Notes: a model not told the origin generated them from the letters alone. A stretch of DNA of 64,000 bases from an uncultured delta proteobacterium (GCA_903885795.1 CAISJV010000066.1:62001-126000), one strand, 5' to 3'. Numbered from the stretch's first letter, positions 10,861 through 38,527 are shown. Numbers and translations: made by a program.

Positions 10861-12310
10861 CTCGTATATCCCGTTTGGTGGTAATTGATGAGTTCCGGCG
10901 ATGTCCCTGGCTCAGAAATCCTTTGGCGACCTTCAGGAAAACATCCCGTGCGCTGATGGCTCGCCGGATGTAGTTTGCGATTGTCCCCGGCCGCAGATAA
11001 AAATGCAACAGCAGTTTTCTGATTTGGACGAGCAGAATCTGATCGGAGAGCCCCGGGGGAACGTAAACAATCTGATGCAGATCCATCTTGCTCCAGTCAT
11101 CGTCAAAGGTTCCCTGCAATTTTGCCTGTTCGTAGACTGCGGTGCCGGGAAAGGGGGTGAGGGGAAAGATGTTCAAGTCGGAAAGATTCAGCGAGAGTGC
11201 AAAGTCGACGGTTTCTTGAATGGTCTGCTCTTTCTCCCACGGAAAGCCGATGATAAAGAAGCCCTTGGCCTCGATACCCACCCGGCGTGTCATCGCAATC
11301 TTGCGGCGGATTTCGTCAAGGGTGATCTTTTTGTTTATACGATCCAGTGTGTCCTGGCTACCGCTTTCGATACCATATGAAATGTACCAGCACCCCGCTT
11401 TTTTCATCAAGGCGAGCATTGCTTCATCGACGGTGTCGATACGGGCGTTTACTGACCATGAAATATCAATCCTGTTATCCATGATATAGTTGCATACTTT
11501 TGCCAGCCTTGATTTGTGGGCAGTGAAATTATCATCTTCGAAGGCTATTTCACGATAGCCGAGACTGATCAAAAGCTCAATGAGGCTGATGACATATTCC
11601 GGCGAATGAAACCGCACGCGCTTATTGAAAATGTTTGTGTTACAAAACGTGCATGTATGGGTACATCCTCGGGAGGTAATGGCGTGTATCGCAGGCAGGC
11701 GCCTCGTTTTGAAAAGTGCCGGCATGATTGCATCTTGCGCGGCAACTAGATCGTAGGCCGGCAAGCCCAGTTCATCGATATCCCCGATCAGTTCCCGCGG
11801 GGGATTGATAACAAGTGGCTGATCTGATGGGAATCGCACAATAGTGCCCGGAAGGCCTTGCAAGCTTTCCATCGTCCCGTCAAAAACACGAACGATCTCC
11901 TGAAGCGTACGCTCCCCTTCGCCAATGACACCGACATCGACAGCCGGCGTACGTTCCATGGTTTCTTTCGGGACCGTTGTGATATGCGGCCCCCCCAGTA
12001 CAACAAGAACATGTGGAAATGCCTGCTTGATTGATGCCGCCAGTTCCTGGGCACGGGTTATGGCGGGTGTAACGGCCGAGATGCCGACAATATCCGGGGA
12101 GTGCTGCAGGATATGGCGGAGGATGTGCTCCTTTGATGAGCCACTACAGGCGGCATCGATTATCTCAACCTCGCACACTGACCGCAGTGCTGTTGCCAGA
12201 TACAGCAGACCGATCGACGGGAGGTGACCGCCCAAGATACCCAGCTTTCCCAATCGCTCTTTGACGGGGTAAGGCGGCGTGAGGAGGAGTATCTTTTTCC
12301 GTAAGCTCAT
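10850..12310 (-). CDS. B12-binding radical SAM protein (copy II)
   Basis: 486 residues with an N-terminal B12-binding domain (LLLTPPYPVKE at the start, PDIVGISAVTP near residue 75, LGGPHITTVP near 105), then the radical SAM cluster motif SRGCTHTCTFC near residue 215 and the GIESGSQ signature near 310. It resembles the large BchE/HpnP-like class whose best-known members methylate or oxidise carbon positions, but nothing in the sequence fixes a substrate. It begins six bases after the DUF2304 gene and is followed by a zinc-ribbon methyltransferase, forming a tight set with the polyprenyl-phosphate sugar genes. Confidence 0.86.
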   Translation of the reverse strand: MSLRKKILLLTPPYPVKERLGKLGILGGHLPSIGLLYLATALRSVCEVEIIDAACSGSSKEHILRHILQHSPDIVGISAVTPAITRAQELAASIKQAFPHVLVVLGGPHITTVPKETMERTPAVDVGVIGEGERTLQEIVRVFDGTMESLQGLPGTIVRFPSDQPLVINPPRELIGDIDELGLPAYDLVAAQDAIMPALFKTRRLPAIHAITSRGCTHTCTFCNTNIFNKRVRFHSPEYVISLIELLISLGYREIAFEDDNFTAHKSRLAKVCNYIMDNRIDISWSVNARIDTVDEAMLALMKKAGCWYISYGIESGSQDTLDRINKKITLDEIRRKIAMTRRVGIEAKGFFIIGFPWEKEQTIQETVDFALSLNLSDLNIFPLTPFPGTAVYEQAKLQGTFDDDWSKMDLHQIVYVPPGLSDQILLVQIRKLLLHFYLRPGTIANYIRRAISARDVFLKVAKGFLSQGHRRNSSITTKRDIRDAT

Positions 12311-15596: not shown

Positions 15597-17537
15597 CTAG
15601 TTCGCAATGATGGATCGCCTATTTTCAGCAGGTCCCTCAGTATCATCTGGGTGTATACCCAACAACCTCCGCCAACGCGGCAGCCTTTTGTCCAGGCAGA
15701 AATAGGGTTCAGCTACCACACGAGCACAATCACGGGTGGTAAGTAGTGCCTCCGCCAATTCTGTAGGGTTCGTGGCATACATCACCCCCTCCATACCACG
15801 CAGGGGACTCATATTAAAGGAGTTGCTATCCAGCACCGAAACCACCTGCAAGCCGGAATAATATGCATCCACCGCTGCCGTGGTGATATTGCTCGTGTAG
15901 GCTACGTTACATTCAGACAGCAATTCTTTCAAGGGCGCACTGGTCATGAGGAGTTGAAGTGAGGAGTAATCTCCCGTTTTTATGGGACAATTAGGATGTG
16001 GTTTAACTACATAGATTGTATCCAACGGCAACAAAGGTGCAGCATCAACTAGCCATTGCATCTGTTGACGAGTGACAGCTGGCAGATAATCCCCCAGTAC
16101 GAGTATACGAAGAGGACCGATCAACGGCTCATTGGCACCGGTCTTAATAGGTGGCAGGTCGGCAAGATATTGATAACGAAGCGCTTCGACCTCCACTATT
16201 TGATCCTTTGGGTAGCCCTCTTTGCGGTATGCTGCCAGAGCTGCTGGGCCATTGAGTGCCATCTTGTCGGGAAGAGGCAAATCGTTTTTCCCTGCTCGCA
16301 CATAACTCTTTGTGTCGTAAAAATAACGGAGATCCCAAAACCGAACCGGCCCATGAGGGACACCGATCAGACGGCCATGCCCAGCCGTGCGCCAAGCATG
16401 GATGAAGGCCATCTCCCATTCCTGATTTTCTTGCAAATAAACGCCCAATTCCTGGTGTGGCAACCGTCTAAGGGTTCTCTCGAACAGGTTCAGACACAAG
16501 CAGTTCCAGATTGCGATTGGACCGCGCATTGAATTACGCCAGTCCTGTTTGAACAATGGCCAGAAATCGAGCCTCGACTCGGTGGTGCAGAACTGGTGCC
16601 TTATCTTGTTCAGTCTCATACTCATCCAGACAAGGCGGCTATAATCGATCAGTGTTGCCAGCACGGCCGAAATGCTAAGCGCGCCATCCAGCGTGGCATG
16701 AAATTGCCGCACCATCCCATTTTGGTTGAAGCGGGCGATTAAATCCTGAGCCTGCCTGGTAGAGGCTACCGCCTCGTGTTGAATATAGTGATGCAGCCAA
16801 TTAATCTGCGCTCCGCAGCGGCCGAGAACGTCCACCAAGTCCGTCCAGAAGTTGGAAGCAAATCGTCCAGTGGTCAACGCTTTCTGATCCAGATGAATCA
16901 GGTAATCGACGAAAGTCATTGCGTTGCTGTCAGCCGCTTTTTGATACCCATTCTTTTGCTTCAGCGGCCAACGCTGCCAAATGTAGTGTGTCAACCAAAT
17001 GATCGCCTGAACTGGATGCGGCAGTGAGTGATACAACCTTTTGATCCACGAGTCCGGCGATTTCCGCTCTGACAATGACCGCCATTCGAATACCAAGCCA
17101 GCATTAATACACCACCGTCGCAAGGCTTGGACCAATGATCTATCACCGCTAACCAAAATAATAGCGGAAACCGAATGGGTGACGGCTAGTTCCTCAAGTG
17201 CCAGCAGTTTTAAAACATCGCTTATATAAAGCGATTCCCATATGTTGCTCTTCTTCGCAACTAAGGTCATCCACCAATAACTGAACCCGGGGCGCAACTC
17301 CAGATGATCGACCAAGCGTTTGCCTTCAATATGCGACTCGCCCACGCCATAAATCCAAGCAAGATAGCGTGCCCGAAGTGCATCGGCTTGCTCCTCGAGA
17401 AGCCTGGGGATGGAATGCACCAGATTGTCGCCCTCAGCATAACTCCGCCAAAGGATTGGTATCCATTTCCCTTTTGGTGGCTCGCCATCACTGTCCCAAA
17501 TTAGGAAGGTCGGATGTTCCTCAGTCAGTTGACTCAA
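15597..17537 (-). CDS. Surface carbohydrate biosynthesis protein (TIGR04326-like, probable GT-B transferase)
   Basis: 646 residues, no membrane segment. The C-terminal half has a GT-B-like donor region: YVVKPHPNCP near residue 510 and, about 50 residues on, AYTSNITTAAVDAYYSG, an HP plus Ser/Thr pattern shared with capsule, Kdo and sialic-type transferases. Overall size and pattern recall the surface carbohydrate family TIGR04326, a recollection I could not check. It starts with TTG at 17537 and lies 56 bases after the AroB-like cyclase gene, at the end of the KdsB/aldolase cassette. It is thus a candidate transferase for the CMP-activated sugar made there (inference). Confidence 0.62.
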   Translation of the reverse strand: MSQLTEEHPTFLIWDSDGEPPKGKWIPILWRSYAEGDNLVHSIPRLLEEQADALRARYLAWIYGVGESHIEGKRLVDHLELRPGFSYWWMTLVAKKSNIWESLYISDVLKLLALEELAVTHSVSAIILVSGDRSLVQALRRWCINAGLVFEWRSLSERKSPDSWIKRLYHSLPHPVQAIIWLTHYIWQRWPLKQKNGYQKAADSNAMTFVDYLIHLDQKALTTGRFASNFWTDLVDVLGRCGAQINWLHHYIQHEAVASTRQAQDLIARFNQNGMVRQFHATLDGALSISAVLATLIDYSRLVWMSMRLNKIRHQFCTTESRLDFWPLFKQDWRNSMRGPIAIWNCLCLNLFERTLRRLPHQELGVYLQENQEWEMAFIHAWRTAGHGRLIGVPHGPVRFWDLRYFYDTKSYVRAGKNDLPLPDKMALNGPAALAAYRKEGYPKDQIVEVEALRYQYLADLPPIKTGANEPLIGPLRILVLGDYLPAVTRQQMQWLVDAAPLLPLDTIYVVKPHPNCPIKTGDYSSLQLLMTSAPLKELLSECNVAYTSNITTAAVDAYYSGLQVVSVLDSNSFNMSPLRGMEGVMYATNPTELAEALLTTRDCARVVAEPYFCLDKRLPRWRRLLGIHPDDTEGPAENRRSIIAN

Positions 17538-17593: not shown

Positions 17594-18694
17594 TTATTCA
17601 TTTAAAGACCGCATAGTTCGTTTCCCGGTCAGCACTTGCCTTGAAAAATACGCATGGATCATTCCCCTGAAGTGATCATCCAGGGGTAACTGCTGTTTTT
17701 CGAGGATGCCGGGCCCCTTTGATAGGATGCAGCCTACGTTGTTCCCCACGTTTTTTTTGTCTTTTGCGAGAAAAGCAAGATAATTGTCAAGATTGATTCT
17801 GTTCCAGTCAAACTCAGGAAAGTTTATACGTAGATCTGTATGTAAATCATGGAAAATCCCTGGGCTCATATATCCCATTTTCATGGCCACGTAGTTTGCC
17901 ATGTCCATACCGACTGTTACGGCCTGTCCATGCTTGATTGCGTAATCTGTGACGGATTCAATGGCATGACCGAAGGTGTGACCATAATTAAATTTATTCC
18001 GCTCACCTCGATCAAACTCGTCATTTTCAATTACAGACGTCTTAATCTTCAGGCTTGCCCGAATGTATTTCATAAGAAGGTTTCGGTCTCGGATTATCAT
18101 TGCGTAATCGCGGATCAGTTCATCGAAAAGAGGACTTGCGGCGTAAAGGTAGTAGTGCATGATCTCGCCGATACCGGACTTGATGTCATCGACGGAAAGT
18201 GTATCGAGAAACATCGTGTCTATATAGATTTCGGAGGGTGGATAGAAATTGCCGACAAGGTTTTTTTTATCGCCGAGGTTGATGGAGGTCTTACTACCAA
18301 TACAACTGTCGGACTGGCCAAGAAGCGTTGTCGGAAAAAAGGACCACTCGATACCTCTGTATATAATAGAGGCGCTAAAGGCGGTCAAATCCTGAATGAT
18401 ACCACCACCAATAGCTACAAGCTTTTCGTTACGCCGCACCTGTCTGGCAACAAGTGTCTCAATAATTTCCCGGCATTTGTCGAGTGATTTATTGTTTTCA
18501 TTGGCTTCGACTAAAAAAAGACGTTCTTCAGAAATTACACCTTTTAGATTATCTATATATGTTTCCCATATGATAGAATCAATGATAAAAAACGCATGCT
18601 GATCAACAAGTCCTCTAAGCGGTCGTGTGAAGTCTCCGATAAAATTCACTTCGTAATTTCGGAAGAGAGACCTGATTCGCAAAGAATCAGACAT
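17594..18694 (-). CDS. AroB-like sugar-phosphate cyclase (dehydroquinate synthase superfamily)
   Basis: 366 residues. NAD-binding GGGIIQD and RGIEW lie near residues 95-113, followed by PTTLLGQSDSCIGSKTSIN and KNLVGNFYPP. Presumed metal ligands are Glu in GEIMH (near 180), His in YGHTFGHAIE (near 250) and His in KHGQAV. The family cyclises sugar phosphates (DAHP, sedoheptulose-7-P) into carbocycles. Two usually conserved positions differ from canonical AroB: the Lys of EVIK is His (GEIMH) and the Glu of HGE is Gln. With a sugar cassette around it, a role in a cyclitol or rearranged sugar is more likely than shikimate synthesis. ATG 18694 is chosen because GGAGG precedes it by 8 bases; it overlaps the SDR gene. 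Confidence 0.83.
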   Translation of the reverse strand: MSDSLRIRSLFRNYEVNFIGDFTRPLRGLVDQHAFFIIDSIIWETYIDNLKGVISEERLFLVEANENNKSLDKCREIIETLVARQVRRNEKLVAIGGGIIQDLTAFSASIIYRGIEWSFFPTTLLGQSDSCIGSKTSINLGDKKNLVGNFYPPSEIYIDTMFLDTLSVDDIKSGIGEIMHYYLYAASPLFDELIRDYAMIIRDRNLLMKYIRASLKIKTSVIENDEFDRGERNKFNYGHTFGHAIESVTDYAIKHGQAVTVGMDMANYVAMKMGYMSPGIFHDLHTDLRINFPEFDWNRINLDNYLAFLAKDKKNVGNNVGCILSKGPGILEKQQLPLDDHFRGMIHAYFSRQVLTGKRTMRSLNE

Positions 18695-19439
18695 CGACGA
18701 ATCCTCCATCGACGATAACGTTCTGTCCTGTTAGGTAAGTATTCAGAGAACTAGCCAAGAAAAGGACCACATGGGAAATCTCAGCAGGTTCAGCAAATCG
18801 ATTGATAGGAACCTGCGAGGCAAGATCTTTCATCTCTTCCTCGCTCAGAATACTTTTCGTTAGTTCGGTTAGCACAAAACCGGGGGAGACTGAATTGACC
18901 AAAATATTATAAGGCGCAAGCTCTATGGCAGAGGACACTGTGAGCCCGCGGAGACCGAATTTCGTCGTTGTGTATATAGAACGTTTGGCCTTGCTGATGA
19001 CCCCAAATATCGAGGCAACATTTATGATCCGTCCATATCGGTTTTTCTTCATGAGTCGGCTTACGGCCCGGGTAATCATGAAAGGGGCTTCAAGGTTCAC
19101 TTTTAGAATATCCTTCCAATCTTCAAGCAATGTCTCGTCGATTAAGTTGATCCGGTTAATCCCCGCATTGTTGATGCAGACGTCGATCTTTTGATAAGTC
19201 TCGATGGCCTCTATAAAAGTTTTCGTGCTTTCAGCATTGGCAAAATCTACGGCGTAGTATTCCCTGGTCACGTGCTTTTTATGTTTTGCCTCTCGGTTCA
19301 GCGTTTCTATCTCATCCTTGTCGGTCCCGGTCAGGATCAGATTGGCGCCGAGTTTGGCAAAATCATCGGCAAACTGCTTTCCCATTCCCCGGGTCGCACC
19401 TGTCACGAGAACCGTTTGTTCTTGAAAATCAATCTTCAT
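18687..19439 (-). CDS. Short-chain dehydrogenase/reductase (SDR)
   Basis: 250 residues, a classical SDR: cofactor loop TGATRGMGK near residue 13, NNAG near 89, catalytic Ser in the ASIFG segment and YTTTK near residue 157, ending in the usual VDGGFVDV. It resembles FabG-like enzymes that reduce or oxidise a hydroxyl or keto group with NAD(P)H. The start codon overlaps the stop of the 2-hydroxyacid dehydrogenase (ATGA), and its own end overlaps the cyclase start, so all three should be produced together. Likely handles a keto-sugar or keto-cyclitol intermediate. Confidence 0.88.
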   Translation of the reverse strand: MKIDFQEQTVLVTGATRGMGKQFADDFAKLGANLILTGTDKDEIETLNREAKHKKHVTREYYAVDFANAESTKTFIEAIETYQKIDVCINNAGINRINLIDETLLEDWKDILKVNLEAPFMITRAVSRLMKKNRYGRIINVASIFGVISKAKRSIYTTTKFGLRGLTVSSAIELAPYNILVNSVSPGFVLTELTKSILSEEEMKDLASQVPINRFAEPAEISHVVLFLASSLNTYLTGQNVIVDGGFVDV

Positions 19440-20365
19440 GATCTTCCATCTCTGATCTTCTTCAAATAATTTATCAGGTTATCTACAGCTTCGTTTTCCA
19501 TCTGCAAGCGGCACTCGGCCGTGTATGACCCCACATGGGGTGTTAAAATGACATTTCGGTAACCGCACAGAGGCCCTTTGTAGGGCTCCTCCTCGAAGGT
19601 GTCGAGCCAAGCACCCGCTATCGTTCCGCCTTCGAGAGCTTTAATTAGTGCTTCTTCTGAAATGACACCGCCCCGTGCAACGTTGAGCAGAAAAGAGCCT
19701 TTCTTCAGGAGAACAAATTCCTTTTCACCGATAATACAATCATGTCCGCTGCAGTGGATAGTGACAATATCAGATTCTGGCAGTGCCACCAGGAGGGTCA
19801 CCTTCCGATAGCCAGCACAGGCGCTTTCATTAACATAGGGATCGACAACCAAAATCTTTACACCGAAGGGGGAAAGCAACTCCGTGACCCGACGTCCAAT
19901 CCTTCCGAAACCGACGATGGCCACAGTCTTTCCCTGTAACTGGACACCTACTTTCTTCTGCCACTGACCGCTGTGGAGCGCCTGATCCATCTGGGGTATC
20001 ATCCGTAGCAGACTTAAAATGGCCCCGATGGTAAGTTCCGCCACGGCGTTGGTCGGGGCAGCAGGGGTGTTGAAAACCTGGATACCCAAATCACTGGCGG
20101 CGTCAATATCTACATTGGAAAGTCCTGCACCCACACGGGAGACTACCTGAATCCCGGATCTCTCCAGAATCTCCCGGTCTATGGTTTCCAGCCCCGCAAT
20201 AAGACCCACGACGTTACCATCCAAGAGACCGAACAATTCCTTCTTTGTCAGTTTCCGCTTGTAGGGATTGTCTACCACCGCATAACCCGCCGCAATCAAT
20301 CTGTTCATGGGGGTTTTGTCGGCTTCGGCAAACGATGATGGTCCTATGAGAATCTTAGATGCCAT
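19436..20365 (-). CDS. D-isomer 2-hydroxyacid dehydrogenase (SerA-like)
   Basis: About 309 residues. NAD-binding VGFGRIGRRV near residue 150; the catalytic triad is visible as Arg in NVARGG, Glu in DTFEEEP and His in LTPHVGS. Members interconvert 2-keto and D-2-hydroxy acids. The start at ATG 20365 (MASKILIGPSS) is preferred over an upstream in-frame start that would run into the SIS gene. In this cassette it may act on a sugar-derived 2-keto acid such as an ulosonate precursor (inference). Confidence 0.87.
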   Translation of the reverse strand: MASKILIGPSSFAEADKTPMNRLIAAGYAVVDNPYKRKLTKKELFGLLDGNVVGLIAGLETIDREILERSGIQVVSRVGAGLSNVDIDAASDLGIQVFNTPAAPTNAVAELTIGAILSLLRMIPQMDQALHSGQWQKKVGVQLQGKTVAIVGFGRIGRRVTELLSPFGVKILVVDPYVNESACAGYRKVTLLVALPESDIVTIHCSGHDCIIGEKEFVLLKKGSFLLNVARGGVISEEALIKALEGGTIAGAWLDTFEEEPYKGPLCGYRNVILTPHVGSYTAECRLQMENEAVDNLINYLKKIRDGRS

Positions 20366-20384
20366 AAATATTCGGTGTTTTATG

Positions 20385-20996
20385 TTATTTAAGTTTAAAC
20401 TGAAACCAGTGTGCAAGAATGTGGTTAAGTACAAGATGAGCATCCTCTACAGGGCCATATTCCCCAGCTTCTGATTTCACATGAACAACCAAATTCGACA
20501 TTTCCTTCAACTTACCTCCCGTGAATCCGACAAAGCTTATGACTCTCCCGCCTTGTTCCTTAACCCATTCGGCAGCGGCTACCACATTGGGCGAATTGCC
20601 GCTGGCTGAGATTGCCAATAACTTGTCGCCGTGACGATAGTGAATCTTCAATTGATTCAGAAAGACCTCTTCATACCCCACATCATTGGCAATTGCCGTA
20701 ATTACAGAGGTGTTATCCGTTAGTGCTAATACCCTGAATGGTTTATCTGTGCCGCTTTTTTTGATAATATCAAAACCTATGTCATTGCCCATGCTTGTTG
20801 CCGTGGTGGCGGAACCGCCATTCCCGACAATAAAGATTGTATTGCCGATCGCTCGAGCATTTTCAAACTCTTCCACAAGCTTGTCAATTGACTCTGGTGT
20901 GATGGAATCCAGTACCTGCTTCAAATAATTAAAGTACCCATGAGCAAACGCACCCGCACTTTGCGAATTATTACACAACCTGTCAATATTGTTCAT
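20385..20996 (-). CDS. SIS-domain phosphosugar isomerase (GmhA-like)
   Basis: About 203 residues with the SIS motif VGNGGSATTATSM near residue 60 and AISASGNSPNV near 130, the arrangement of sedoheptulose-7-phosphate isomerase GmhA and its relatives. These convert keto- to aldo-sugar phosphates. The first possible ATG is at 21050, but that overlaps the upstream dehydrogenase gene by 34 bases; the internal ATG 20996 fits the family N-terminus better. An isomerase that can act on a C7 sugar phosphate next to an AroB-like cyclase suggests sedoheptulose-type chemistry (inference). Confidence 0.82.
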   Translation of the reverse strand: MNNIDRLCNNSQSAGAFAHGYFNYLKQVLDSITPESIDKLVEEFENARAIGNTIFIVGNGGSATTATSMGNDIGFDIIKKSGTDKPFRVLALTDNTSVITAIANDVGYEEVFLNQLKIHYRHGDKLLAISASGNSPNVVAAAEWVKEQGGRVISFVGFTGGKLKEMSNLVVHVKSEAGEYGPVEDAHLVLNHILAHWFQFKLK

Positions 20997-21016
20997 GCCT
21001 TTTTCTAAACCTCTTT

Positions 21017-22057
21017 TTAGGGACTCTGAATATTGAACTCTTTTTGCCATCGTTCATCAGCACAGTATATTTTATAAACCAACTCCATTACATGAAGGGC
21101 TTCAGTGCTGTTTCCATTTAACACTGTTTTATCATTGATGACTATATCAACAAAATCATTAACCTCACATTGCCAAGAGTTGTCATCGAGATATGAATTG
21201 GTTATCTCAAAAAAGGAACCAACCGATGAGCCGTCCTTCTTGGGTATAATTTTCAGCCGCTCGTCCCCATAGCTCTTGGTACCTGAGAGGATACCCGACA
21301 ACTCCAGAAGCGCCTCTCTCAGGGTTATCTCGAGTCGGAACTTGTGCTGCCACTGTGTTGCTGTTGAATGCAACATGGCGACACAACCTTCCCGATTCCG
21401 CATGAGGGCGTAGGCGTTATCTTCGACATCGTGGCGCCAGTAGCTATTCGAGACAAAGCTCTTGATTTCTTCAAACTCGCCCGCAAAATAGCGGATCATA
21501 TCAAGGATATGGATTCCCTGGTCAAGGAGTATTCCTCCCCCTGCGTATCGCCGCTCTGAACGCCAACCTTTGTCAAAGGAGATAATGCTGCTCTTGCCGT
21601 AAATTCCCCTCAGATTGATAATCTCGCCATATTGTCCTGACTCGATAACCCGTTTCGCCTCTTTCACCGATTCATGGTAGCGGTGGTTGAAGCCATACTT
21701 AAGTTTAAGGTGGGGTTGCTTTTTTTCAGCCGTGATGACATCCTGGACATCTTGGATTGTCCTTCCCGGCGGTTTCTCGCAGAATACGTGAAGACCTCTT
21801 CCAAGCCCTGCTATCGTCGCCTCGGCTGCAAGATAATTCGGAAGACTAACGAAAATTACATCAAGTTTTTCGTTGAACAACTCTTGGTAGTTCGGGTAAA
21901 GCTTCACTCCATCCGGCTCTGTACTAGGCTGGCCAAAGCTAATATCACTTATGGCAACCGTGTCCATATTGGGGTTGAGATCAATGAACTGACGTCTTCG
22001 CTTGCCGACGGTACCGTACCCGGCAATGCCCACTTTAAGAATACTATTTTTCGTCAT
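21017..22057 (-). CDS. Gfo/Idh/MocA family sugar dehydrogenase
   Basis: About 346 residues. Rossmann fold start VGIAGYGTVGKRRR near residue 10 and the family motif CEKPPG near residue 95, with a C-terminal alpha/beta domain. These NAD(P)-dependent enzymes oxidise or reduce sugar hydroxyl groups. ATG 22057 lies inside the end of the aldolase gene (14-base overlap), preceded by a G-rich ribosome site; longer in-frame starts upstream would only read across the aldolase. Part of the KdsB/aldolase cassette. Confidence 0.88.
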   Translation of the reverse strand: MTKNSILKVGIAGYGTVGKRRRQFIDLNPNMDTVAISDISFGQPSTEPDGVKLYPNYQELFNEKLDVIFVSLPNYLAAEATIAGLGRGLHVFCEKPPGRTIQDVQDVITAEKKQPHLKLKYGFNHRYHESVKEAKRVIESGQYGEIINLRGIYGKSSIISFDKGWRSERRYAGGGILLDQGIHILDMIRYFAGEFEEIKSFVSNSYWRHDVEDNAYALMRNREGCVAMLHSTATQWQHKFRLEITLREALLELSGILSGTKSYGDERLKIIPKKDGSSVGSFFEITNSYLDDNSWQCEVNDFVDIVINDKTVLNGNSTEALHVMELVYKIYCADERWQKEFNIQSP

Positions 22058-22835
22058 TACACCGCCCGCGCAGGGACTCCAGGAACCATCCCTGTGCCGA
22101 TTCAAAACCTTCACGAAGCACTGCGGCGTCCACGCGATAGGATATGAAACGGAATCCGGTTTCCACGAGAAGCTGGATATAGTCCCGATCACGGGCGACC
22201 GAGCCGGCAATGATACCTTTGTCATTAATCATCTTGACACAATCGCGCACAATCCTGATCACCTTCGGATGGTTAACATCGCCAGAGACGCCAACAGATT
22301 GGGAGATATCATAAACGCCAAGATATACCATATCCAGGTTACCCACCTCGCAGATTTTCTCAAGCTGGTTAAGGCCTTCTTCGCCTTCCACAAGAACGCC
22401 GATGAACATCTGTTCATTGGCATGACGGAGCTTTTCGGCAATGCCTACATCCGAGTACCCATGATTACGGGTGAAAGGTGATAAACCCCGCTCGCCTTCG
22501 GGATAATAACGCGTCGCCTTCACGATCCGGGCGGCTTCTTCCGGTGTCGATACATGGGAAACCATCAATGACTGCGCACCGATTTCGAGGGCATGCAGGA
22601 TGGCCTGTTCATTGGCGTCCCCAAGGCGAACAATGGGGCTGCAACCGGCAGATTCCGCAGCATAAAGCTGAGCTTCCACCGTTTCAAAGGACATGGGCCC
22701 ATGCTCCATGTCGATGATAATAAAATCCACCCCGGCATGACCAATCGTGTTCATTACCGATGGTGAACCAAGCATGGACCAGGTGCCGAATACCCTTTCG
22801 CCCGCTTTTAATTTAGCTTTTAAATGATTGATCAT
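22044..22835 (-). CDS. HpcH/HpaI-type pyruvate aldolase
   Basis: 263 residues of the class II HpaI fold. Expected residues are present: His in DMEHGPMS (near 48), substrate-carboxylate Arg in IVRLGD (near 73), metal ligands Glu in LVEGEEG (near 150) and Asp in LGVYDIS (near 176). These enzymes reversibly add pyruvate to an aldehyde, giving a 4-hydroxy-2-keto acid. Beside a CMP-ulosonate-type cytidylyltransferase it could build a 3-deoxy-2-ulosonic acid directly from pyruvate (inference). ATG 22835 has an AAAGGA ribosome site and lies 19 bases after the cytidylyltransferase. Confidence 0.87.
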   Translation of the reverse strand: MINHLKAKLKAGERVFGTWSMLGSPSVMNTIGHAGVDFIIIDMEHGPMSFETVEAQLYAAESAGCSPIVRLGDANEQAILHALEIGAQSLMVSHVSTPEEAARIVKATRYYPEGERGLSPFTRNHGYSDVGIAEKLRHANEQMFIGVLVEGEEGLNQLEKICEVGNLDMVYLGVYDISQSVGVSGDVNHPKVIRIVRDCVKMINDKGIIAGSVARDRDYIQLLVETGFRFISYRVDAAVLREGFESAQGWFLESLRGRCNDEK

Positions 22836-22854
22836 GCCCGCACATTCCTTTCTT

Positions 22855-23616
22855 TCACGCCTGCGATCGATATCGTACATAGAATTCATCCTTCGCCATG
22901 ATCGCTTCCGCCTCCTGCCGGTCCTTCTCCGTATCGACGGAAACGCTTGTATAACGCGACAGCGCCGTACGGACTTTGACGCCGTGTTCCACAGCCCGCA
23001 GAAGCTCAATAGACTCGGCGATCTCCAGCGGCGCAGGCGTCATCTCCTGAAATTCCAGGAGAAACTTTTTTCTAAAAGGCATAATCGCCACCTGCTTGAG
23101 CCTCGGTCCGATTCTGTCCCGGGTATTGGAAGGGACGGGAGTCCTTGTCATATAGAGGATGTCACCCTGCAGGTCAGTGACCACCTTTACCTCATTGGGG
23201 TCCAGCCACTCCGTCTCGTTGGCCTCGGCTACGAGGGTCAGCAACTGGATTGCCTGGTCCTTGAGCAGTGGCGCCACCGCCAGATTGATCATCCCCGGAT
23301 GAAGCAGCGGTTCATCTCCCTGAACAACGACCACTATGTCATCATCGGCAATATCCTGTTGCCGGCATGCTTCCGCCACCCGCAGGCCGGGTCTAGGAAT
23401 ATTTTTATCCGTCATGAAAACCTTACCGCCAAAACCCAGGACCGCCTCACGGATTTCTTCATCGCAAGTGGCAACGAAAAGGTCGTCAATAGAATCGGCG
23501 AGCAGACACCTTTTATAGACATGTTCGACCATGGGCATATCCAGTATTTTGGCCAAGGGTTTGCCGGGAAACCGGGAAGAACCCATCCGGGCGGGAATAC
23601 CTACGATTACTCTCAT
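22855..23616 (-). CDS. KdsB-like CMP-ulosonate cytidylyltransferase
   Basis: 253 residues. GIPARMGSSRFPGKPL at the N-terminus and VVQGDEPLL near residue 98 are the CTP- and metal-binding signatures of CMP-Kdo synthetase; the C-terminal SVDTEKD segment also fits. It activates a 3-deoxy-2-keto sugar acid as its CMP ester. No KdsA, KdsC or KdsD is nearby, whereas an HpaI aldolase follows directly, so the substrate may be a non-Kdo ulosonic acid made by that aldolase (inference). ATG 23616 is selected because AGGAGG ends six bases before it; ATG 23622 abuts the ribosome site. Confidence 0.87.
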   Translation of the reverse strand: MRVIVGIPARMGSSRFPGKPLAKILDMPMVEHVYKRCLLADSIDDLFVATCDEEIREAVLGFGGKVFMTDKNIPRPGLRVAEACRQQDIADDDIVVVVQGDEPLLHPGMINLAVAPLLKDQAIQLLTLVAEANETEWLDPNEVKVVTDLQGDILYMTRTPVPSNTRDRIGPRLKQVAIMPFRKKFLLEFQEMTPAPLEIAESIELLRAVEHGVKVRTALSRYTSVSVDTEKDRQEAEAIMAKDEFYVRYRSQA

Positions 23617-23622
23617 AATCAT

Positions 23623-23628
23623 CCTCCT
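23623..23628 (-). promoter_or_regulatory. Strong ribosome binding site deciding the KdsB-like start
   Basis: A perfect AGGAGG lies six bases upstream of ATG 23616. The alternative ATG at 23622 begins immediately after it and would have no spacer, so the shorter protein is the one translated. Confidence 0.8.
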
Positions 23629-23717
23629 GTAAACACAATATTAAATTAAAGGTATATATTACTGATACTTCCCGCCATGCGGGAGCTGATCCGATTGCCT
23701 TTGTACTTCCGGAAGGA

Positions 23718-24362
23718 TCAGATCTTCGTCCCGATAGTGGCTACATCGACGGACCATGTGACCGGCCAGCCGACAATTTTGATCATCAGCGATTTAAAGC
23801 TCATGACTTCTTCTTCTTCAAAATAGCGCTTCTTGGTTCCGGGTTGCAGTTTTGTAATGGACCTGTTCACCGCACCATGACCTGGAAGCATGTTTCGGGA
23901 ACGCGCCAGTTCTAATGTTGCCATTTCACTTAATTCGACCTGAAGGCCGGCTTCCTCATAAAGGGCGCGCATCCCGTCAGGATAGATTCTCCAACAGTCA
24001 ATGGGCGCCCGATGATAAGGCCAGCTCACAGGATTGATAATTATTACATATCCGCCTTTTTTCGCCACCCTGGCCAATTCTTTAATCCAAATCCAGGGCT
24101 TCCGGACATGCTCAATTACCTGCCCGGCCAGAACGACATCAAAGATATTATCGGGAACGGGGAAACTATTTTCGCTGGCCGCCACATATGTTAGATTATC
24201 GCGAGGAACAATATCCAAAGTCTGCCAATCAATGCTGCTCAGCCCCACTATTTCATTATATGTCGACGGACATTTATTGGGGCCGATTTCCAGGACAACG
24301 TCATTGGGAGTAAATATTTTTTTGCAATATTTTTCAAATATTAAAGTACTGTTAATATGCAG
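23718..24362 (-). CDS. SAM-dependent methyltransferase with CTG start
   Basis: About 214 residues. Motif I is VLEIGPNKCPSTY near residue 22, an unusual glycine-poor variant, and the VLAGQVIEHVRKPW segment near residue 80 is the typical Methyltransf_11 post-motif. The open frame continues well upstream of the first GTG (24248), and truncating there would delete motif I. The only sensible start is CTG at 24362, preceded by GGAGG with a 7-base spacer and giving an MHINSTLIFEKY-type N-terminus. It begins 13 bases after the epimerase. Probably methylates a sugar of this cassette. Confidence 0.72.
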   Translation of the reverse strand: MHINSTLIFEKYCKKIFTPNDVVLEIGPNKCPSTYNEIVGLSSIDWQTLDIVPRDNLTYVAASENSFPVPDNIFDVVLAGQVIEHVRKPWIWIKELARVAKKGGYVIIINPVSWPYHRAPIDCWRIYPDGMRALYEEAGLQVELSEMATLELARSRNMLPGHGAVNRSITKLQPGTKKRYFEEEEVMSFKSLMIKIVGWPVTWSVDVATIGTKI

Positions 24363-24369
24363 CTTCCGC

Positions 24370-24374
24370 CCTCC
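24370..24374 (-). promoter_or_regulatory. GGAGG ribosome site for a CTG-initiated methyltransferase
   Basis: GGAGG lies 7 bases before CTG 24362. No ATG, GTG or TTG occurs in this frame between the upstream stop codon and the SAM-binding motif, so this site supports initiation at CTG. Confidence 0.6.
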
Positions 24375-24375
24375 A

Positions 24376-25317
24376 TTATTCCGAGAATAAGCCCGATGCC
24401 TTCACCCACTGAGCCATTTTTGTTATTCCTCCTTCCAGACCGACTCGGGGCGCCCAGCCCAATTGGGACCGAATCAGGGAACTGTCTCCATAGAAACCAA
24501 ACTGATCGTTGGTTGTCGGTTCGCCATATTTTATCGGGTAGGTGGTGGGGTCCTGGCCAAAGGCTTTGATGATCATCTCGATCAACTGCCAGACGTACGT
24601 TTTCTGTCCGCTCGCTATGTTAAAGGTCTTGCCGTAAGCGTTTTCGTTTAAGCACCGGTAAAATGCATCCGCCACATCTTCCACATAGGAAAAATCGCGG
24701 AATCGGTCCCTGGACCCCCTGATAAAAACCGGTTCTTTGCGGGCCACGTAGGCCATGTAGATACTGGCCATACCCTGCAACAAATTGCGCATGTCCTGTC
24801 GCGGGCCATACACGTTAAAAAGCCGCAGCACCGTGGCGTTCACGCCGAAGTCCTGATATATCCGGCACAGATATTCCGAGGCCATCTTGCCTACGGCATA
24901 AGGCGACGGGGGTGCAATCAGCGCGCTTTCCTTGATCGGCATTTCCAGGGCGTTACCATATACATTAACGGAGCTGGCAAAGATAAATTGCTTAACGCGG
25001 CAATTAACGCACCACTTCAGCAGGAGCAGGGTGGAAAGGGCATTGGCCTTAAAGTCATAGATTGGCCGCTGAAAGGATAGTTCCTGGCCGACATGGGAAG
25101 CCAAATGAAAAACGGCGTCGACGCCATCTTTCGGCAGCATGTCCAGAGAATCTTCATTAGTCAAATCCAGCCACAAGAACTCGGCCTCGGGCGGAACATT
25201 ATTAAAATAACCGGACGAGAGATTATCGACGACCAGGACAGACCATCCTTCCCGCAACAACCTTTCCGTCAAATGACTTCCTATGAAACCGGCCCCGCCT
25301 GTCACAATTGCTCGCAT
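24376..25317 (-). CDS. NAD-dependent nucleotide-sugar epimerase/dehydratase
   Basis: 313 residues of the extended SDR family: TGGAGFIGSHL near residue 7, catalytic Ser in ASSVNVYG near 118 and YAVGK near 143, then RLFNVYGPRQ near 172. The build matches GalE/RmlB-like 4-epimerases and dehydratases. It sits in the FAH/KdsB cassette, 21 bases after a methyltransferase gene. The nucleotide-sugar substrate is not evident. Confidence 0.88.
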   Translation of the reverse strand: MRAIVTGGAGFIGSHLTERLLREGWSVLVVDNLSSGYFNNVPPEAEFLWLDLTNEDSLDMLPKDGVDAVFHLASHVGQELSFQRPIYDFKANALSTLLLLKWCVNCRVKQFIFASSVNVYGNALEMPIKESALIAPPSPYAVGKMASEYLCRIYQDFGVNATVLRLFNVYGPRQDMRNLLQGMASIYMAYVARKEPVFIRGSRDRFRDFSYVEDVADAFYRCLNENAYGKTFNIASGQKTYVWQLIEMIIKAFGQDPTTYPIKYGEPTTNDQFGFYGDSSLIRSQLGWAPRVGLEGGITKMAQWVKASGLFSE

Positions 25318-25338
25318 ATTATGGAAAACTCCTTATAT

Positions 25339-26229
25339 CTATTTTTTTGCCGTTATAAAGATATGGCTCGCAATGCCAAGACGCTCAATCTCTTCTACAT
25401 AGATTGTTTGAAAATGGTCATCCAGAACCCCGCTTGTATCGAAAGCGCCGGGCTTGCCATTTTTCATCCATTGCAGAAGATTGTTGAGGTTGTACTTGTG
25501 AATGTACCCCACGGATATGGAACGGAAACCAACCTTTTCCAAAAGCAGGGCCGCGGCCTTTCCCGTAAAATAATTCAGATGAGATACCTGAAAAAAGAAA
25601 GGCTCAAAAGCCTGGAGATAGAGCGCTCTGACGATATCATCATAATTAGGCATGGAAAGATAGAAGATGCCGTCGTCTTGCAAGGCCTCATAGATCTGCC
25701 GGACAAAATCCTTCAGATCAAGCACATGTTCTATCGTATCAAAAGACACCGCGACATCCAGTTTTTCCCCGGCATCGAGAAGTTCCTGCGCATAGCTGTA
25801 AAAAATATGCCCCCGGGCTTGAAAATATTTCTGGTAAAGACGGGATGGCTCAATGGCTATGGTTTTTTTAGCAACGCTCTGGATGGCATCCAGAAAAAGG
25901 CCGGCACCGGCACCATAATCGGCAATAACCTTGCCTCTTACCGTCTGAATCCCTATTCTGCGGACACGGATATTCTGTTCAACGTCATATTTTTGCTGCA
26001 TACTGGCAACGTCGATCTCTTCAAAAAACTGCTGGCGATACTGTTCCGATTCATAAAATTCGGCAAGATTATCAGGCAGTGGAGCCAGAGAAACCAGACC
26101 GCAATCCTGACACTTACAGATTTTATAGCCATCGACAAATCCCGATCCCACACCGCCGCTGCGGATGGGACCTTCGTAAATTACTTGTTGTGATTTTGCA
26201 TCACATAACCTGCACAAACTACTATTCAT
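25339..26229 (-). CDS. Zinc-ribbon class I methyltransferase (sugar C-methyltransferase-like)
   Basis: 296 residues. The N-terminus carries CRLC (near residue 6) and CKCQDCG (near 38), a four-Cys zinc site as seen in NovU/TylC3-type sugar C-methyltransferases, followed by ADYGAGAGLF near 103 and VSFDTIEHVLD near 160. These enzymes methylate carbon or oxygen atoms of nucleotide-linked or keto sugars. It follows the FAH-family gene by 16 bases and is second in the promoter-led cassette. C-methylation is inference from domain layout only. Confidence 0.8.
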   Translation of the reverse strand: MNSSLCRLCDAKSQQVIYEGPIRSGGVGSGFVDGYKICKCQDCGLVSLAPLPDNLAEFYESEQYRQQFFEEIDVASMQQKYDVEQNIRVRRIGIQTVRGKVIADYGAGAGLFLDAIQSVAKKTIAIEPSRLYQKYFQARGHIFYSYAQELLDAGEKLDVAVSFDTIEHVLDLKDFVRQIYEALQDDGIFYLSMPNYDDIVRALYLQAFEPFFFQVSHLNYFTGKAAALLLEKVGFRSISVGYIHKYNLNNLLQWMKNGKPGAFDTSGVLDDHFQTIYVEEIERLGIASHIFITAKK

Positions 26230-26245
26230 AATATTATTTCACCTC

Positions 26246-27028
26246 TCAGCACTGATTTCCGTCTTGAACAGCAAAGCGATTTGTAAGAGCCCCCAGACCG
26301 GCGATTCTTGCAGTATAGGTATCTCCATTCGAGAGAAAACGCATGCCCACCGTATCGGGTGGATTTCCGGTCAGCACTACGTCCCAGGGCTCCAGAGTGA
26401 TCCAAGTGGATAACCAGGAAACGATCCGGGGCCATTGCCAGACCTGCTGGCTGGATTGTCCGCGCCGGATCACCTCTCCATTCTGGATGGCTTCAATCAG
26501 ACAGTCCGCGGCATCGAACTCCGTATCAATCCACGGCCCCAGCGGACAAAAATGATCCGGACATTTTGATCTGGCCAAATGATGATCCCGCCCCTCCACG
26601 TTTTCCACGGTGACATCATTCCCAATCGTGAAGCCCAGAATTCCACAGACAACATTTTCTAAGGCAATATTGCTCATTTTTTTCTTGATGACGACACCGA
26701 GTTCCGCCTCCCCCCACCAGGGAAGATCAGCAAAGGGATTTATAATTATATCATCCGGATTCGCCACACACGAAGACGGTTTAATAAAGACGAGGGGTTC
26801 CGACATCTGGGGGGAATATCCGCCGATACCGGGGAAATTTATCGCGACAGCCACTATTTTCGAAGGCCGGCAAGGGGATAACAAACGCACATCTCCCAGT
26901 TTTCCGGCAAATGAACCCCTCTTAGCAACACCCAGGGGATCCCCATGCAGCAGATAAATATTATCTTCCTCTAAAATCCCGAAGATTGGTTCATCGGTTT
27001 CTTTGCGCTGATATCTTATGATCTTCAA
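26246..27028 (-). CDS. Fumarylacetoacetate hydrolase (FAH) family protein
   Basis: 260 residues with FAH-fold metal-binding features: GEAELGVVI near residue 107, NDVTVENVE near 135 and the CPLGPWI segment near 160, followed by VLTGNPPDTVGM near 220. Family members hydrolyse or decarboxylate acylpyruvates and 3-deoxy-2-keto sugar acids. As first gene behind a strong promoter, in a cassette with an HpaI aldolase and 2-hydroxyacid dehydrogenase, it likely acts on a 2-keto acid intermediate, either as dehydratase/hydrolase or in clearing side products (inference). Ribosome site AGGA is 8 bases before the ATG. Confidence 0.85.
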   Translation of the reverse strand: MKIIRYQRKETDEPIFGILEEDNIYLLHGDPLGVAKRGSFAGKLGDVRLLSPCRPSKIVAVAINFPGIGGYSPQMSEPLVFIKPSSCVANPDDIIINPFADLPWWGEAELGVVIKKKMSNIALENVVCGILGFTIGNDVTVENVEGRDHHLARSKCPDHFCPLGPWIDTEFDAADCLIEAIQNGEVIRRGQSSQQVWQWPRIVSWLSTWITLEPWDVVLTGNPPDTVGMRFLSNGDTYTARIAGLGALTNRFAVQDGNQC

Positions 27029-27060
27029 TTTCCTGTCCTCTCCCGGGCGGCTTGTTCATC

Positions 27061-27089
27061 ATTATTTGAGGAATGATATCATTTGTCAA
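27061..27089 (-). promoter_or_regulatory. Near-consensus sigma-70-type promoter
   Basis: On the minus strand TTGACA (27084-27089, perfect -35) is followed after exactly 17 bases by AATAAT (27061-27066, five of six -10 bases). It lies in the 137-base gap between the flippase and FAH genes and would start transcription about 25 bases before the FAH ATG. This is the best promoter I find in the window and defines the head of the cassette running down to about 15600. Confidence 0.75.
27072..27083. promoter_or_regulatory. 12-base palindrome in promoter spacer (operator candidate)
   Basis: AATGATATCATT is a perfect 12-base palindrome filling the spacer between the -35 and -10 elements. A second palindrome, TCAATTGA, overlaps the -35 edge (27086-27093). 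Position and symmetry are those of a repressor operator; no regulator gene is nearby. Confidence 0.45.
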
Positions 27090-31958: not shown

Positions 31959-33347
31959 CTAAGACTGTCTGAACCCTCTGAAATTAGCATCCTTGGTGAA
32001 ATACAGTTCTTGCAATTGATGTTCGAAAGAGGTTATCTTCTTGTTAAAGTAAGCTCTTATTAATGTTAAATTGGCCTCATATAAACGCTGATAAAACTCG
32101 TCATCGCTCATTTGAGTAAAATTAACCGCCAATAAATCGGAATTGATATGTTTATTCTCATAAAAGTCCGCACAGTCCTTGAGCATGCCTTTTTCTAGCG
32201 CATAATAATAAAGTGGCGAACCCGGATAGGGCGTAACAGGGCGAATGGTCCTCATCTGCGAGCCATCGTCATATTTCAGCAGGAAATCGACGCCTTTTTT
32301 CAGGCTTTCTTTCGTCTCGCCGATATTGCCAAATATGATATTATATCCTGGGCTGATTCCCGCCTCCAGAGTCGCTTCGATCCCCTGGATGATCTGTTTG
32401 GTGTTTAAGGATTTGTTCATCACTTTCAACATGCCATCATCAAATGATTCGATCCCGTAATTGATAAACACGCAGCCGGCCTGCTTCATATGCCTTAAGA
32501 CATCCTGCTTGGCAAAGTTCAGCCGCCCGTTGCAATCCCATTTGATATTCAGCTTCTTCTTGATGAAATCATTGCATAAACTTAAAGTCCTCTCTCGGGA
32601 AGCCATCAAAAGATCGTCACCAAAGCAAATATGCGTAACCCCATAGTCCGCCTTCAGCATTTCGATTTCGGCGATGATGCTGTCATTGCTTCTCGGACGG
32701 AACCCCTTGTCCATCCGGTAGCAGAAATTACATTTGAACGGGCAACCTCTTCCGGAAAGGACGGGCATGGCAAAATCAGCATTCGTGCCGCGAATAACCC
32801 TTAATAACCTGTAATAATCGACGGGGAAGAGTTCATAGGCGGGAAAGGGGATTTCATCAATATTCTTGATCAGCGGGCGTCGCTCATTCACCACGCATTC
32901 ATCGCCTTTTCTGAAGGCAATGCCTTTAATCTGGTCTAGCTCCTGCCTGTTTTGCAGGGTTTTCAGCAACTCGACAATTGTAATTTCGCCTTCCCCCATG
33001 ACAATGGCATCGGCTCCTGTTTTGCGCAGAAAGAACTCCGGTTCCGGGGTTGGGCCATGGCCGCCGATTACGTAAAAAGGGCGTTTTGTCGAGCTGTTGA
33101 TCGCTGCGGATATCTTTAATGCCTTGCGATACTGGTAATAACCGCCGATAAAGCTAAGACCGACAACATCAAAATGATTTTGGTCCAGATATCTTTGCAG
33201 ATGGCTTTCCGGGTAATGATGCACATCCTGATTATATATTTCCACCTCATATCCATCTTTCAACAAAACGGCGGCAATATAGGCCAAGCCTTGAGGAAAC
33301 CAGTGGATATAGGAATCGTTATCATATACTATAAGAAGGATTTTCAT
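31959..33347 (-). CDS. B12-binding radical SAM protein (copy III)
   Basis: 462 residues: B12-binding domain (ILLIVYDNDSYIHWFPQGL at the start, FDVVGLSFIGG near 80, IGGHGPTPEPEF near 105) then radical SAM domain with GRGCPFKCNFC near residue 200 and NYGIESFDDG near 300. The AGGAAAATTAA ribosome region precedes the ATG. Such proteins catalyse methyl transfer or carbon-skeleton chemistry. It follows ptmE by about 80 bases and precedes a methyltransferase, so it may modify the nonulosonic acid or its chain (inference). Confidence 0.86.
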   Translation of the reverse strand: MKILLIVYDNDSYIHWFPQGLAYIAAVLLKDGYEVEIYNQDVHHYPESHLQRYLDQNHFDVVGLSFIGGYYQYRKALKISAAINSSTKRPFYVIGGHGPTPEPEFFLRKTGADAIVMGEGEITIVELLKTLQNRQELDQIKGIAFRKGDECVVNERRPLIKNIDEIPFPAYELFPVDYYRLLRVIRGTNADFAMPVLSGRGCPFKCNFCYRMDKGFRPRSNDSIIAEIEMLKADYGVTHICFGDDLLMASRERTLSLCNDFIKKKLNIKWDCNGRLNFAKQDVLRHMKQAGCVFINYGIESFDDGMLKVMNKSLNTKQIIQGIEATLEAGISPGYNIIFGNIGETKESLKKGVDFLLKYDDGSQMRTIRPVTPYPGSPLYYYALEKGMLKDCADFYENKHINSDLLAVNFTQMSDDEFYQRLYEANLTLIRAYFNKKITSFEHQLQELYFTKDANFRGFRQS

Positions 33348-33430: not shown

Positions 33431-34504
33431 TTATTGATCATAGCCGATTTTGGCTAATATTTTCTTATACCCTTCCAATTCACCAATGTCTATCCAGGAA
33501 GATTCGCTGACCGGGTATACGCCGACCGTTCCGCCGTTATTCTTAATATCATTGATCAACTGCGTCATATGATAGAATTTGTCAGATGGTATGATATCGA
33601 TTACCCCGGCATTTAATATATACAGGCCTGTATTCACCAAATAGCTGAAATCAGGTTTTTCCCTTATTGCGCAAAGCTTTCCGCCGTTTTCAATATCACA
33701 AATACCATAGGGAATATTATAATGCTTGATGGACGCAACCAGCGTAATGTCATTTTTCATCTTCTTATGGAATTTTAATATCTCGGCATAGTCTTCTTCG
33801 ATGATAATGTCCGAATTGGTAACGATAATATCATCAACAAACTTACCCTGCAGGTATTTTAAGCCGCCGGCTGTCCCCAAAGGTGTTTCCTCTTCAATAT
33901 AAGTAATTTTGTATCTGAGGGTTAAATCTTCAAAATAAGCTTTTATCATCCTTCCCTTATGATTTATGGTGATATAAAAGTCTTTTATCCCAAACTCGGA
34001 AAATTTATCCATAATCACTTCAATGATCGGTTTATCGCCTACAGGGATCAGAGGCTTCGGAAGAACTTTTGTAAAGGGATCAAGGCGGGTGCCTTTGCCG
34101 CCGGCCATGATCACAACCGGCGCGTTTATCCTTTTCCTTTTAATTTTAATATGTTCATCTTTGGAAAGCAGGCTTTCCCATTTAATGATCCGGTAAATTT
34201 TATTATTGGCATCAATTACTGGTAACAACGGCAATTTATATTTAATAAACAGTTCCTTTACATCCCTGGTGAGTAAATTCTTTTGATAAATAAATTTGGG
34301 AGATTTATTAAATATATTCGATATGTCCCCCTGCAGGCTTTCCCCTCTCAGCAAATAACGCCGGACATCGCCGTCACTCAAAGAACCCAATAACTTATTG
34401 GCATCATCGACCACAAATAAAACCTTTTCCGCAGTTTCATCCAGCCGCCGGAGGGCTTCCTTGATACTGAAATTTTTGTTGATCAAAAGCTGTTTATTAA
34501 ACAT
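33431..34504 (-). CDS. ptmE: CBS-domain nucleotidyltransferase, GlcN-1-P guanylyltransferase type
   Basis: 357 residues. Two CBS repeats occupy residues 1-115 (VLFVVDDANKLLGSLSDGDVRR is one core), followed by a nucleotidyltransferase domain beginning VVIMAGGKGTRLDPFTKVLPKPL near residue 130. This CBS plus transferase layout is that of PtmE in Campylobacter, which makes GDP-GlcN for the GDP route to legionaminic acid. It is the last gene of the legionaminic module, 18 bases after the 2-epimerase gene. Paralogues of other sugar specificity exist, so the GDP specificity is inferred from context. By eye the gene is A+T-rich. Confidence 0.85.
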   Translation of the reverse strand: MFNKQLLINKNFSIKEALRRLDETAEKVLFVVDDANKLLGSLSDGDVRRYLLRGESLQGDISNIFNKSPKFIYQKNLLTRDVKELFIKYKLPLLPVIDANNKIYRIIKWESLLSKDEHIKIKRKRINAPVVIMAGGKGTRLDPFTKVLPKPLIPVGDKPIIEVIMDKFSEFGIKDFYITINHKGRMIKAYFEDLTLRYKITYIEEETPLGTAGGLKYLQGKFVDDIIVTNSDIIIEEDYAEILKFHKKMKNDITLVASIKHYNIPYGICDIENGGKLCAIREKPDFSYLVNTGLYILNAGVIDIIPSDKFYHMTQLINDIKNNGGTVGVYPVSESSWIDIGELEGYKKILAKIGYDQ

Positions 34505-34522
34505 TTATCACCACAGTATTTC

Positions 34523-35701: not shown

Positions 35702-35739
35702 TTAAAGATCAGCAGATCATCCTCATCATATTCTTTGTT
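35698..35739 (-). pseudogene. Leftover 3' end of a legI/neuB-type gene fused to the legG start
   Basis: An open frame ending in NKEYDEDDLLIFK stops with TGA overlapping the legG ATG. The intact legI at 37498-38517 ends in DKDYDEDDLLTF. At DNA level 18 bases are identical (35713-35730 and 37510-37527) and, past one mismatch, 7 more match, all in the same reading frame and at the same distance from the stop. This is best read as the original legI tail that was translationally coupled to legG, left behind when a radical SAM gene was inserted. Confidence 0.65.
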
Positions 35740-35800
35740 AGAAGAAACTAATCGACTTCTCCTCAGGGCAGTCTTACCAAAAGAACAGACGTGTATATTT

Positions 35801-37306: not shown

Positions 37307-37397
37307 TTATTCCCCCATTGTCCTATATTTGCCCTGCCCCATGGCTGGATCTCCGGCCTGAAAACAGGGCCAGCTATAATTTCTGAGCCGAAGCAAA

Positions 37398-37426
37398 ATG
37401 ATTCCCGTTCTGTCCGCTGGAATCAT
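37398..37426. repeat. Inverted repeat in the legI-radical SAM gap
   Basis: Arms ATGATTCC and GGAATCAT (8 bases each, 13-base loop), followed on the minus strand by TTTTG. It could act as a weak intrinsic terminator or transcript-processing site after legI. The stem is A+T-rich and the T-run short, so function is uncertain. The rest of the 191-base gap shows no gene. Confidence 0.35.
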
Positions 37427-37497
37427 GATTACCCGCTAACGGGGCCGTCCATTCACACCCGCGCCCGACCTCGGACAAGGCCGGTGATTTGCTTTAG

Positions 37498-38517: not shown

Positions 38518-38527
38518 TTCATGTCTT

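Follow-up and report, generated by a model that had tools for sequence, protein, structure and literature searches.

A recurring six-gene unit in a surface-polysaccharide locus of an uncultured delta proteobacterium may turn a C7 sugar phosphate into a CMP-activated acidic sugar

The stretch of DNA analysed here (hereafter the window) comprises 64,000 nucleotides from an uncultured delta proteobacterium (GCA_903885795.1 CAISJV010000066.1:62001-126000) and carries a run of twelve minus-strand genes, from a gene for a FAH-family hydrolase (26246-27028) down to a gene for a TIGR04326 protein (15597-17537). An earlier reading of the window, made from the letters alone (the sequence-only reading), had described positions 17594-27089 as a promoter-led cassette that may make a CMP-activated ulosonic acid by a pyruvate-aldolase route, and every gene that it named is present at 17594-27028 as a minus-strand open reading frame of the family assigned to it. 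Six of these genes form a unit that recurs in other genomes: an AroB-like sugar-phosphate phospholyase/cyclase (17594-18709); a short-chain dehydrogenase/reductase (SDR; 18687-19439, overlapping the AroB-like gene; PF13561/PF00106); a D-2-hydroxyacid dehydrogenase (19436-20365; PF02826; the frame opens at 20443, and the ATG at 20365 is the likely start); a GmhA-like SIS isomerase (20385-21050); a Gfo/Idh/MocA dehydrogenase (21017-22057, start ATG 22057; PF01408/PF22725); and a KdsB-like cytidylyltransferase (22855-23622; PF02348, 159 bits). Between the last two lies the gene for an HpaI-family pyruvate aldolase (22044-22835, start ATG 22835; PF03328), an accessory gene found in one subtype of the unit. 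The limits first given to the cassette are too wide for a recurring unit: elsewhere only the part corresponding to 17594-23622, from the AroB-like to the KdsB-like gene, is found again, and the four genes upstream of it are not.

To find relatives we scanned named genomes with an alignment of five AroB-like proteins and obtained 80 loci, 15 of which constitute a window-like group (group 1; loci are designated below by L numbers). The 15 loci span at least five phyla, and those with names belong to Desulfobacterota, Bacteroidota, Betaproteobacteria, Gammaproteobacteria (SAR86), Alphaproteobacteria (SAR11), Verrucomicrobiota, Bacteriovoracia and KSB1. An SDR gene adjoins the AroB-like gene in all 15 relatives, and the other core genes are present in 14/15 (Gfo/Idh/MocA), 13/15 (2-hydroxyacid dehydrogenase), 12/15 (KdsB-like) and 11/15 (SIS); two of the three loci that lack a KdsB-like gene have another protein of CTP_transf_3 type (L025, by Pfam; L028, by clustering). 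The six genes are often contiguous and interleaved, for example in the order SDR-AroB-2-hydroxyacid dehydrogenase-KdsB-Gfo-SIS at L015 and L016. None of 46 ordinary AroB loci (L054-L099) has a Gfo, KdsB or SIS homologue. The cyclase family to which the AroB-like protein belongs, TIGR04425, is rare: of a sample of 395 genomes of the phylum, 5 have it, and a reverse search of the 395 genomes with a Gfo profile returned five strong orthologues, four of them in the five TIGR04425 genomes (hypergeometric p 2.5e-8). The fifth lies on a 4.1-kb contig (L110, 1-4125) together with KdsB, SIS and a gene resembling the inositol-monophosphatase family (recognised by eye, not by search); the order there is KdsB-Gfo-SIS and then the inositol-monophosphatase-like gene, and the Gfo frame has one internal stop. 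A search of plasmids with the AroB-like protein gave no match at E 1e-50. We conclude that the core genes do co-occur and constitute a recurring pathway unit.

The results with the host genome (4.0 Mb, 95 contigs, completeness 100) establish that the unit is separate from the genes for 3-deoxy-D-manno-octulosonate (Kdo), heptose and shikimate. Canonical kdsA followed by kdsC lies on contig C56, canonical kdsB, adjoining an hldD-like epimerase gene, on C82, a separate gmhA on C32, and a separate AroB on C52, where its neighbour is a weaker match to 3-deoxy-D-arabino-heptulosonate 7-phosphate (DAHP) synthase. Because the genome holds its own kdsB, gmhA and AroB, the KdsB-like, SIS and AroB-like proteins of the cassette are paralogues. 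The argument from an absent KdsA thus stands for the cassette and fails for the genome. The presence of kdsA and kdsC elsewhere had been named as grounds for abandoning the pathway, should the KdsB-like protein accept only Kdo, as had a failure of the genes to co-occur; kdsA and kdsC do exist, yet so does a separate kdsB, and the core genes co-occur, so that the proposal is not refuted. Family profile searches found neither KdsA nor NeuB among the proteins of the six-gene unit. A NeuB-type phosphoenolpyruvate (PEP)-dependent synthase is encoded at 37498-38535, in a separate legionaminic-acid-type locus next to the cassette (33431-44883; LegB, LegC, CMP transferase, NeuB, NeuC and nucleotidyltransferase). 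Genes of NeuC and nucleotidyltransferase type lie on the flanks of the unit at L023, L024 and L029 as well.

The KdsB-like protein scores 151.7 against TIGR00466 (kdsB), below the cut-off of 155.2, scores 255.2 against PRK13368 (cut-off 255) and passes PRK05450.1-5, and its closest PDB matches are KdsB/KpsU. The KdsB-like proteins of the unit retain the CTP P-loop and the metal-binding Asp residues, the two described for Aquifex KdsB (PMC3149649). Residues matching Arg157, Asp100 and Asp235 of E. coli KdsB are retained in 13/13. The SGT loop is lost, Ser74 is replaced by Arg in 12/13, and, in an alignment, His181 and Gln211 are kept in 19/19 canonical KdsB proteins vs. 0/13 proteins of the unit. 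The same invariants as in E. coli KdsB are present in the canonical KdsB proteins of 17 other genomes of the phylum and of the window's own genome. His181, Gln211 and the SGT loop are, we assume, contacts to Kdo in KdsB. With His181 and Gln211, which do not vary among the canonical KdsB proteins, gone from all 13, the acceptor is probably not Kdo. The alignment thus points to a KdsB paralogue that likely has an altered acceptor pocket and activates an acid other than Kdo, which supports, for a non-Kdo acid, the CMP-activated product predicted earlier.

The AroB-like protein belongs by score to TIGR04425 ("AroB-related putative sugar phosphate phospholyase (cyclizing)"; 435.6 bits, cut-off 400) and stays under the cut-off for ordinary aroB (TIGR01357, 258.5 vs. 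305); a tree sets group 1 apart from a second group, and both apart from ordinary AroB. By alignment, the zinc ligands are conserved in the group 1 proteins, as are the residues matching Lys152, Asn162, Lys250, Arg264, Asn268 and Lys356 of dehydroquinate synthase (DHQS); those kept in the window protein include the phosphate residues of DHQS, and the Lys197-type residue is replaced by His in the window protein and eight relatives. We take DHQS Arg264 to bind the substrate carboxylate and not to be kept in sedoheptulose-7-phosphate cyclases, and the roles of Asn268 and Lys197 are likewise presumed. Because Arg264 is kept, the substrate of the AroB-like enzyme would, if this role holds, be a keto acid phosphate. 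The second group (L030-L052 and L017; Lachnospiraceae, Rhizobium and others) combines the cyclase with an SDR and a thiamine-diphosphate acetolactate-synthase-like enzyme, without KdsB. Its loci have an HMGL-type or an HpaI-type aldolase, never both (16/22 loci in the wider cyclase family), some loci hold FGGY kinase and CDP-glucose genes, and the group apparently represents another undescribed surface-sugar pathway.

The remaining core proteins bear on the size of the substrate. Relative to GmhA, the SIS protein has Asp for Glu65 and Glu for Gln172 and keeps His180, and its score against TIGR00441 (gmhA) is 89 bits, below the cut-off of 209. The 2-hydroxyacid dehydrogenase has its best NCBIfam likeness to phosphoglycerate dehydrogenase (202 bits, below the cut-off of that model). 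The Gfo protein is the best conserved of the unit (41-60% identity to 12 relatives), and distant homologues of Gfo and SIS are encoded at L113, where the operon is of NDP-heptose type and also includes genes for a transaldolase, an HddA-like heptose kinase and a GmhB-like phosphatase. The operons at L112 and L113 have Gfo, SIS and SDR genes, and that at L112 has a phosphofructokinase-like gene. A C7 sugar phosphate is favoured as the substrate by the context at L113 and by two proteins that come from C7-phosphate families, the GmhA-like SIS and the DHQS-type cyclase; the hint of a C7 precursor in the sequence-only reading is thereby strengthened, with SIS, Gfo and AroB-like proteins all pointing to C7 sugar phosphates.

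The HpaI aldolase had been assigned the key C-C bond-forming step. Alignment with solved structures confirms that its His, Arg, Glu and Asp, which we take to be the catalytic His, the pyruvate-binding Arg and the metal-binding Glu and Asp, are intact; since its scores are below the specific aldolase cut-offs (HpaI, 165.8 vs. 368.8; GarL, 140 vs. 406.75), this establishes membership of the family and not a known substrate. An HpaI-family gene is present in 4/6 loci of the window's KdsB subtype (the window, L015, L016, L022, L026 and L027) vs. 0/7 loci of the other subtype (Fisher p 0.02, on small numbers). In the KdsB tree, L014, L020, L023, L024, L032 and L045 form one clade, and L021, which is not in the tree, has the same loop in its fragment; loci of the other subtype carry a second Gfo gene and, mostly, a gene for a HisC-like aminotransferase. 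The window HpaI may be a separate recruitment, since its identity to those of L015, L022 and L026 is only 26-30%, vs. 46-58% among those three. L016 and L032 have the six genes in a contiguous run that includes no aldolase. We therefore reject HpaI as a core step on its patchy distribution; it is an optional, accessory part of the unit. The nearest relative of the window locus, L020, is of the aminotransferase type, and its SIS, 2-hydroxyacid dehydrogenase, SDR and AroB-like proteins are 77-87% identical to those of the window vs. 39% for KdsB and 58% for Gfo; the locus is thus a mosaic, and parts of the unit exchange as blocks.

The six genes are conserved, co-occur and are distinct from those for Kdo, heptose and shikimate, and the acceptor pocket of KdsB is altered. 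From these observations we infer reactions, an order and a product: a conserved O-antigen sugar module that could, as a tentative reading falling somewhat short of even odds, convert a C7 sugar phosphate to a CMP-activated, modified acidic sugar. The SIS isomerase would convert sedoheptulose-7-phosphate to aldoheptose-7-phosphate; the Gfo/Idh/MocA dehydrogenase would oxidise C1 to yield heptonate-7-phosphate; the 2-hydroxyacid dehydrogenase would oxidise C2 to yield hept-2-ulosonate-7-phosphate, a DAHP analogue; an NAD-mediated oxidation by the AroB-like enzyme would lead to phosphate elimination and, probably, ring closure; the SDR would reduce the resulting ketone; and the KdsB-like enzyme would add CMP, for use in the O-antigen. 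In the window's genome HpaI might extend or alter the product, and the other subtype might add an amino group instead. We propose this order as the route with the fewest steps, given the C7 phosphate context and a 2-hydroxyacid dehydrogenase resembling phosphoglycerate dehydrogenase. We are more hesitant about a wider possibility: a new class of surface sugar acids activated with CMP, shared by bacteria from SAR11 and SAR86 to Bacteroidota, Verrucomicrobiota and Desulfobacterota, in which a DHQS-like cyclase would turn a heptose or sedoheptulose phosphate directly into a C7 acid, either carbocyclic or terminally deoxygenated, without a PEP-dependent synthase.

Several observations weigh against the six-step scheme. 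One genome without a TIGR04425 match at the strict threshold applied (G339) holds a fragment with KdsB-Gfo-SIS and a phosphatase; SIS is missing at L014, L026, L027 and L028 (L027 and L028 being short loci); and the scheme leaves the roles of HpaI, the second Gfo and the aminotransferase unexplained. Moreover, one molecule could hardly undergo both cyclisation and glycosyl activation, because ring closure would use up the C2 ketone, on which activation of KdsB type normally relies, and leave no ordinary anomeric hydroxyl for CMP; either the elimination product escapes closure, or the CMP product is chemically unusual, or there are two products. On the last alternative, HpaI, KdsB and Gfo would make one CMP-sugar, and a cyclitol or deoxy sugar destined for a different position would come from SIS, 2-hydroxyacid dehydrogenase, SDR and AroB. 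The different histories of the two blocks relative to L020 and a mismatch between AroB-type and KdsB-type subgroupings are consistent with two products, but the six genes recur jointly across phyla, often contiguous and interleaved, and we regard this explanation as improbable.

An alternative in which HpaI is central, condensing pyruvate with a sugar or cyclitol aldehyde prepared by AroB, SIS and the dehydrogenases to give a 2-keto-3-deoxy acid for activation by the KdsB-like enzyme, is favoured by the intact catalytic residues, by the bias of HpaI to one KdsB subtype and by the mutually exclusive aldolases in the wider cyclase family; it is nevertheless doubtful, given aldolase-free units at L016 and L032, the low identity of the window HpaI to its peers, and the absence of KdsB from the second-group loci that have aldolases. 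The possibility that the KdsB-like protein is a second, KpsU-like CMP-Kdo synthetase supplying Kdo to the O-antigen, with the remaining genes unrelated, draws on clear KdsB homology, the PDB matches and the PRK13368 score at its cut-off. We reject it as a Kdo supply and consider it very unlikely: the invariant acceptor residues are lost in every case, the TIGR00466 cut-off is missed, linkage to the AroB-like unit is tight, and the genome has a separate kdsB. Scarcely any weight attaches to the idea that the AroB-like protein is simply a second DHQS; its DHQS active-site residues are largely kept, but its clade is separate from ordinary AroB, its score is below the aroB cut-off and above that of TIGR04425, and elsewhere in the genome an AroB gene lies next to a DAHP-synthase-like gene; the AroB-like protein was rejected as a shikimate enzyme.

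The remaining genes of the run, also on the minus strand, comprise four that lie outside the recurring unit across the 15 loci: a methyltransferase (23718-24363; PF08241), a NAD-dependent epimerase/dehydratase (24376-25317; PF01370), a second methyltransferase (25339-26229; PF13489) and the FAH-family hydrolase (PF01557; no homologue at the relatives' loci). The PF08241 methyltransferase is longer than first listed and its start is uncertain: upstream of GTG 24248 the same frame encodes an S-adenosylmethionine (SAM) motif, VVLEIGPNK, and the true start probably lies before that codon. The extension (24250-24363) has no ATG, GTG or TTG, and a candidate start codon is a CTG near 24362 preceded by GGAGG. 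The TIGR04326 surface carbohydrate biosynthesis protein (557.9 bits, cut-off 250), also encoded at L020, L022, L023 and L024, is a possible transferase for the product. At the head of the run, where the sequence-only reading had placed a single promoter, TTGACA-17-AATAAT (27089-27061, minus strand) is the top sigma-70-like match in the 16 kb scanned, agreeing with consensus at 11/12 positions; the total of promoter-like sites, 30 vs. 26.7 (standard deviation 5.2) in shuffled sequence, is that expected by chance, and the promoter is plausible, unproven. B12-binding radical SAM proteins are encoded within the polysaccharide locus at 10850-12310 and 31959-33347, the latter resembling several named NCBIfam models and satisfying none of them.

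We found no description of this combination of genes in the literature searched, and the pathway unit is real and apparently undescribed. To our knowledge, the known CMP-activated bacterial sugars (Kdo and nonulosonates) are made with PEP-dependent synthases. From the pairing of a sugar-phosphate cyclase with a KdsB paralogue that lacks the canonical acceptor residues, a new acidic building block for glycans is predicted, and the unit, which abundant ocean bacteria also encode, offers a defined set of six enzymes for reconstitution. Bradyrhizose, an inositol-fused sugar, was considered as the product and set aside; its genes are given as unknown, with an 11-gene cluster with a 4,6-dehydratase pointed to (PMC4743980).

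Among described families and pathways, TIGR04425 includes the window protein by score, and its NCBI entry gives a hypothetical function only. The KdsB-like protein shares with KdsB/KpsU the fold family, the CTP P-loop and the metal-binding Asp residues, but differs in the loss of His181, Gln211 and the SGT loop and in having no linkage to kdsA or kdsC. With the GmhA/HddA heptose pathways the unit has in common the SIS family and distant Gfo and SIS homologues in such an operon, but it lacks a heptose kinase, GmhB and a sugar-1-phosphate nucleotidylyltransferase and has CTP-type activation instead. As in the EEVS, DOIS, aminoDHQS and DDGS pathways, a DHQS-family cyclase has been recruited outside the shikimate pathway; here, in contrast, the cyclase is linked to an SDR and a KdsB-like enzyme in surface-polysaccharide loci. 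Finally, the unit would share with the legionaminic, pseudaminic and Kdn pathways the endpoint of a CMP-activated acid for surface glycans, but would reach it without a PEP-dependent NeuB-type synthase.

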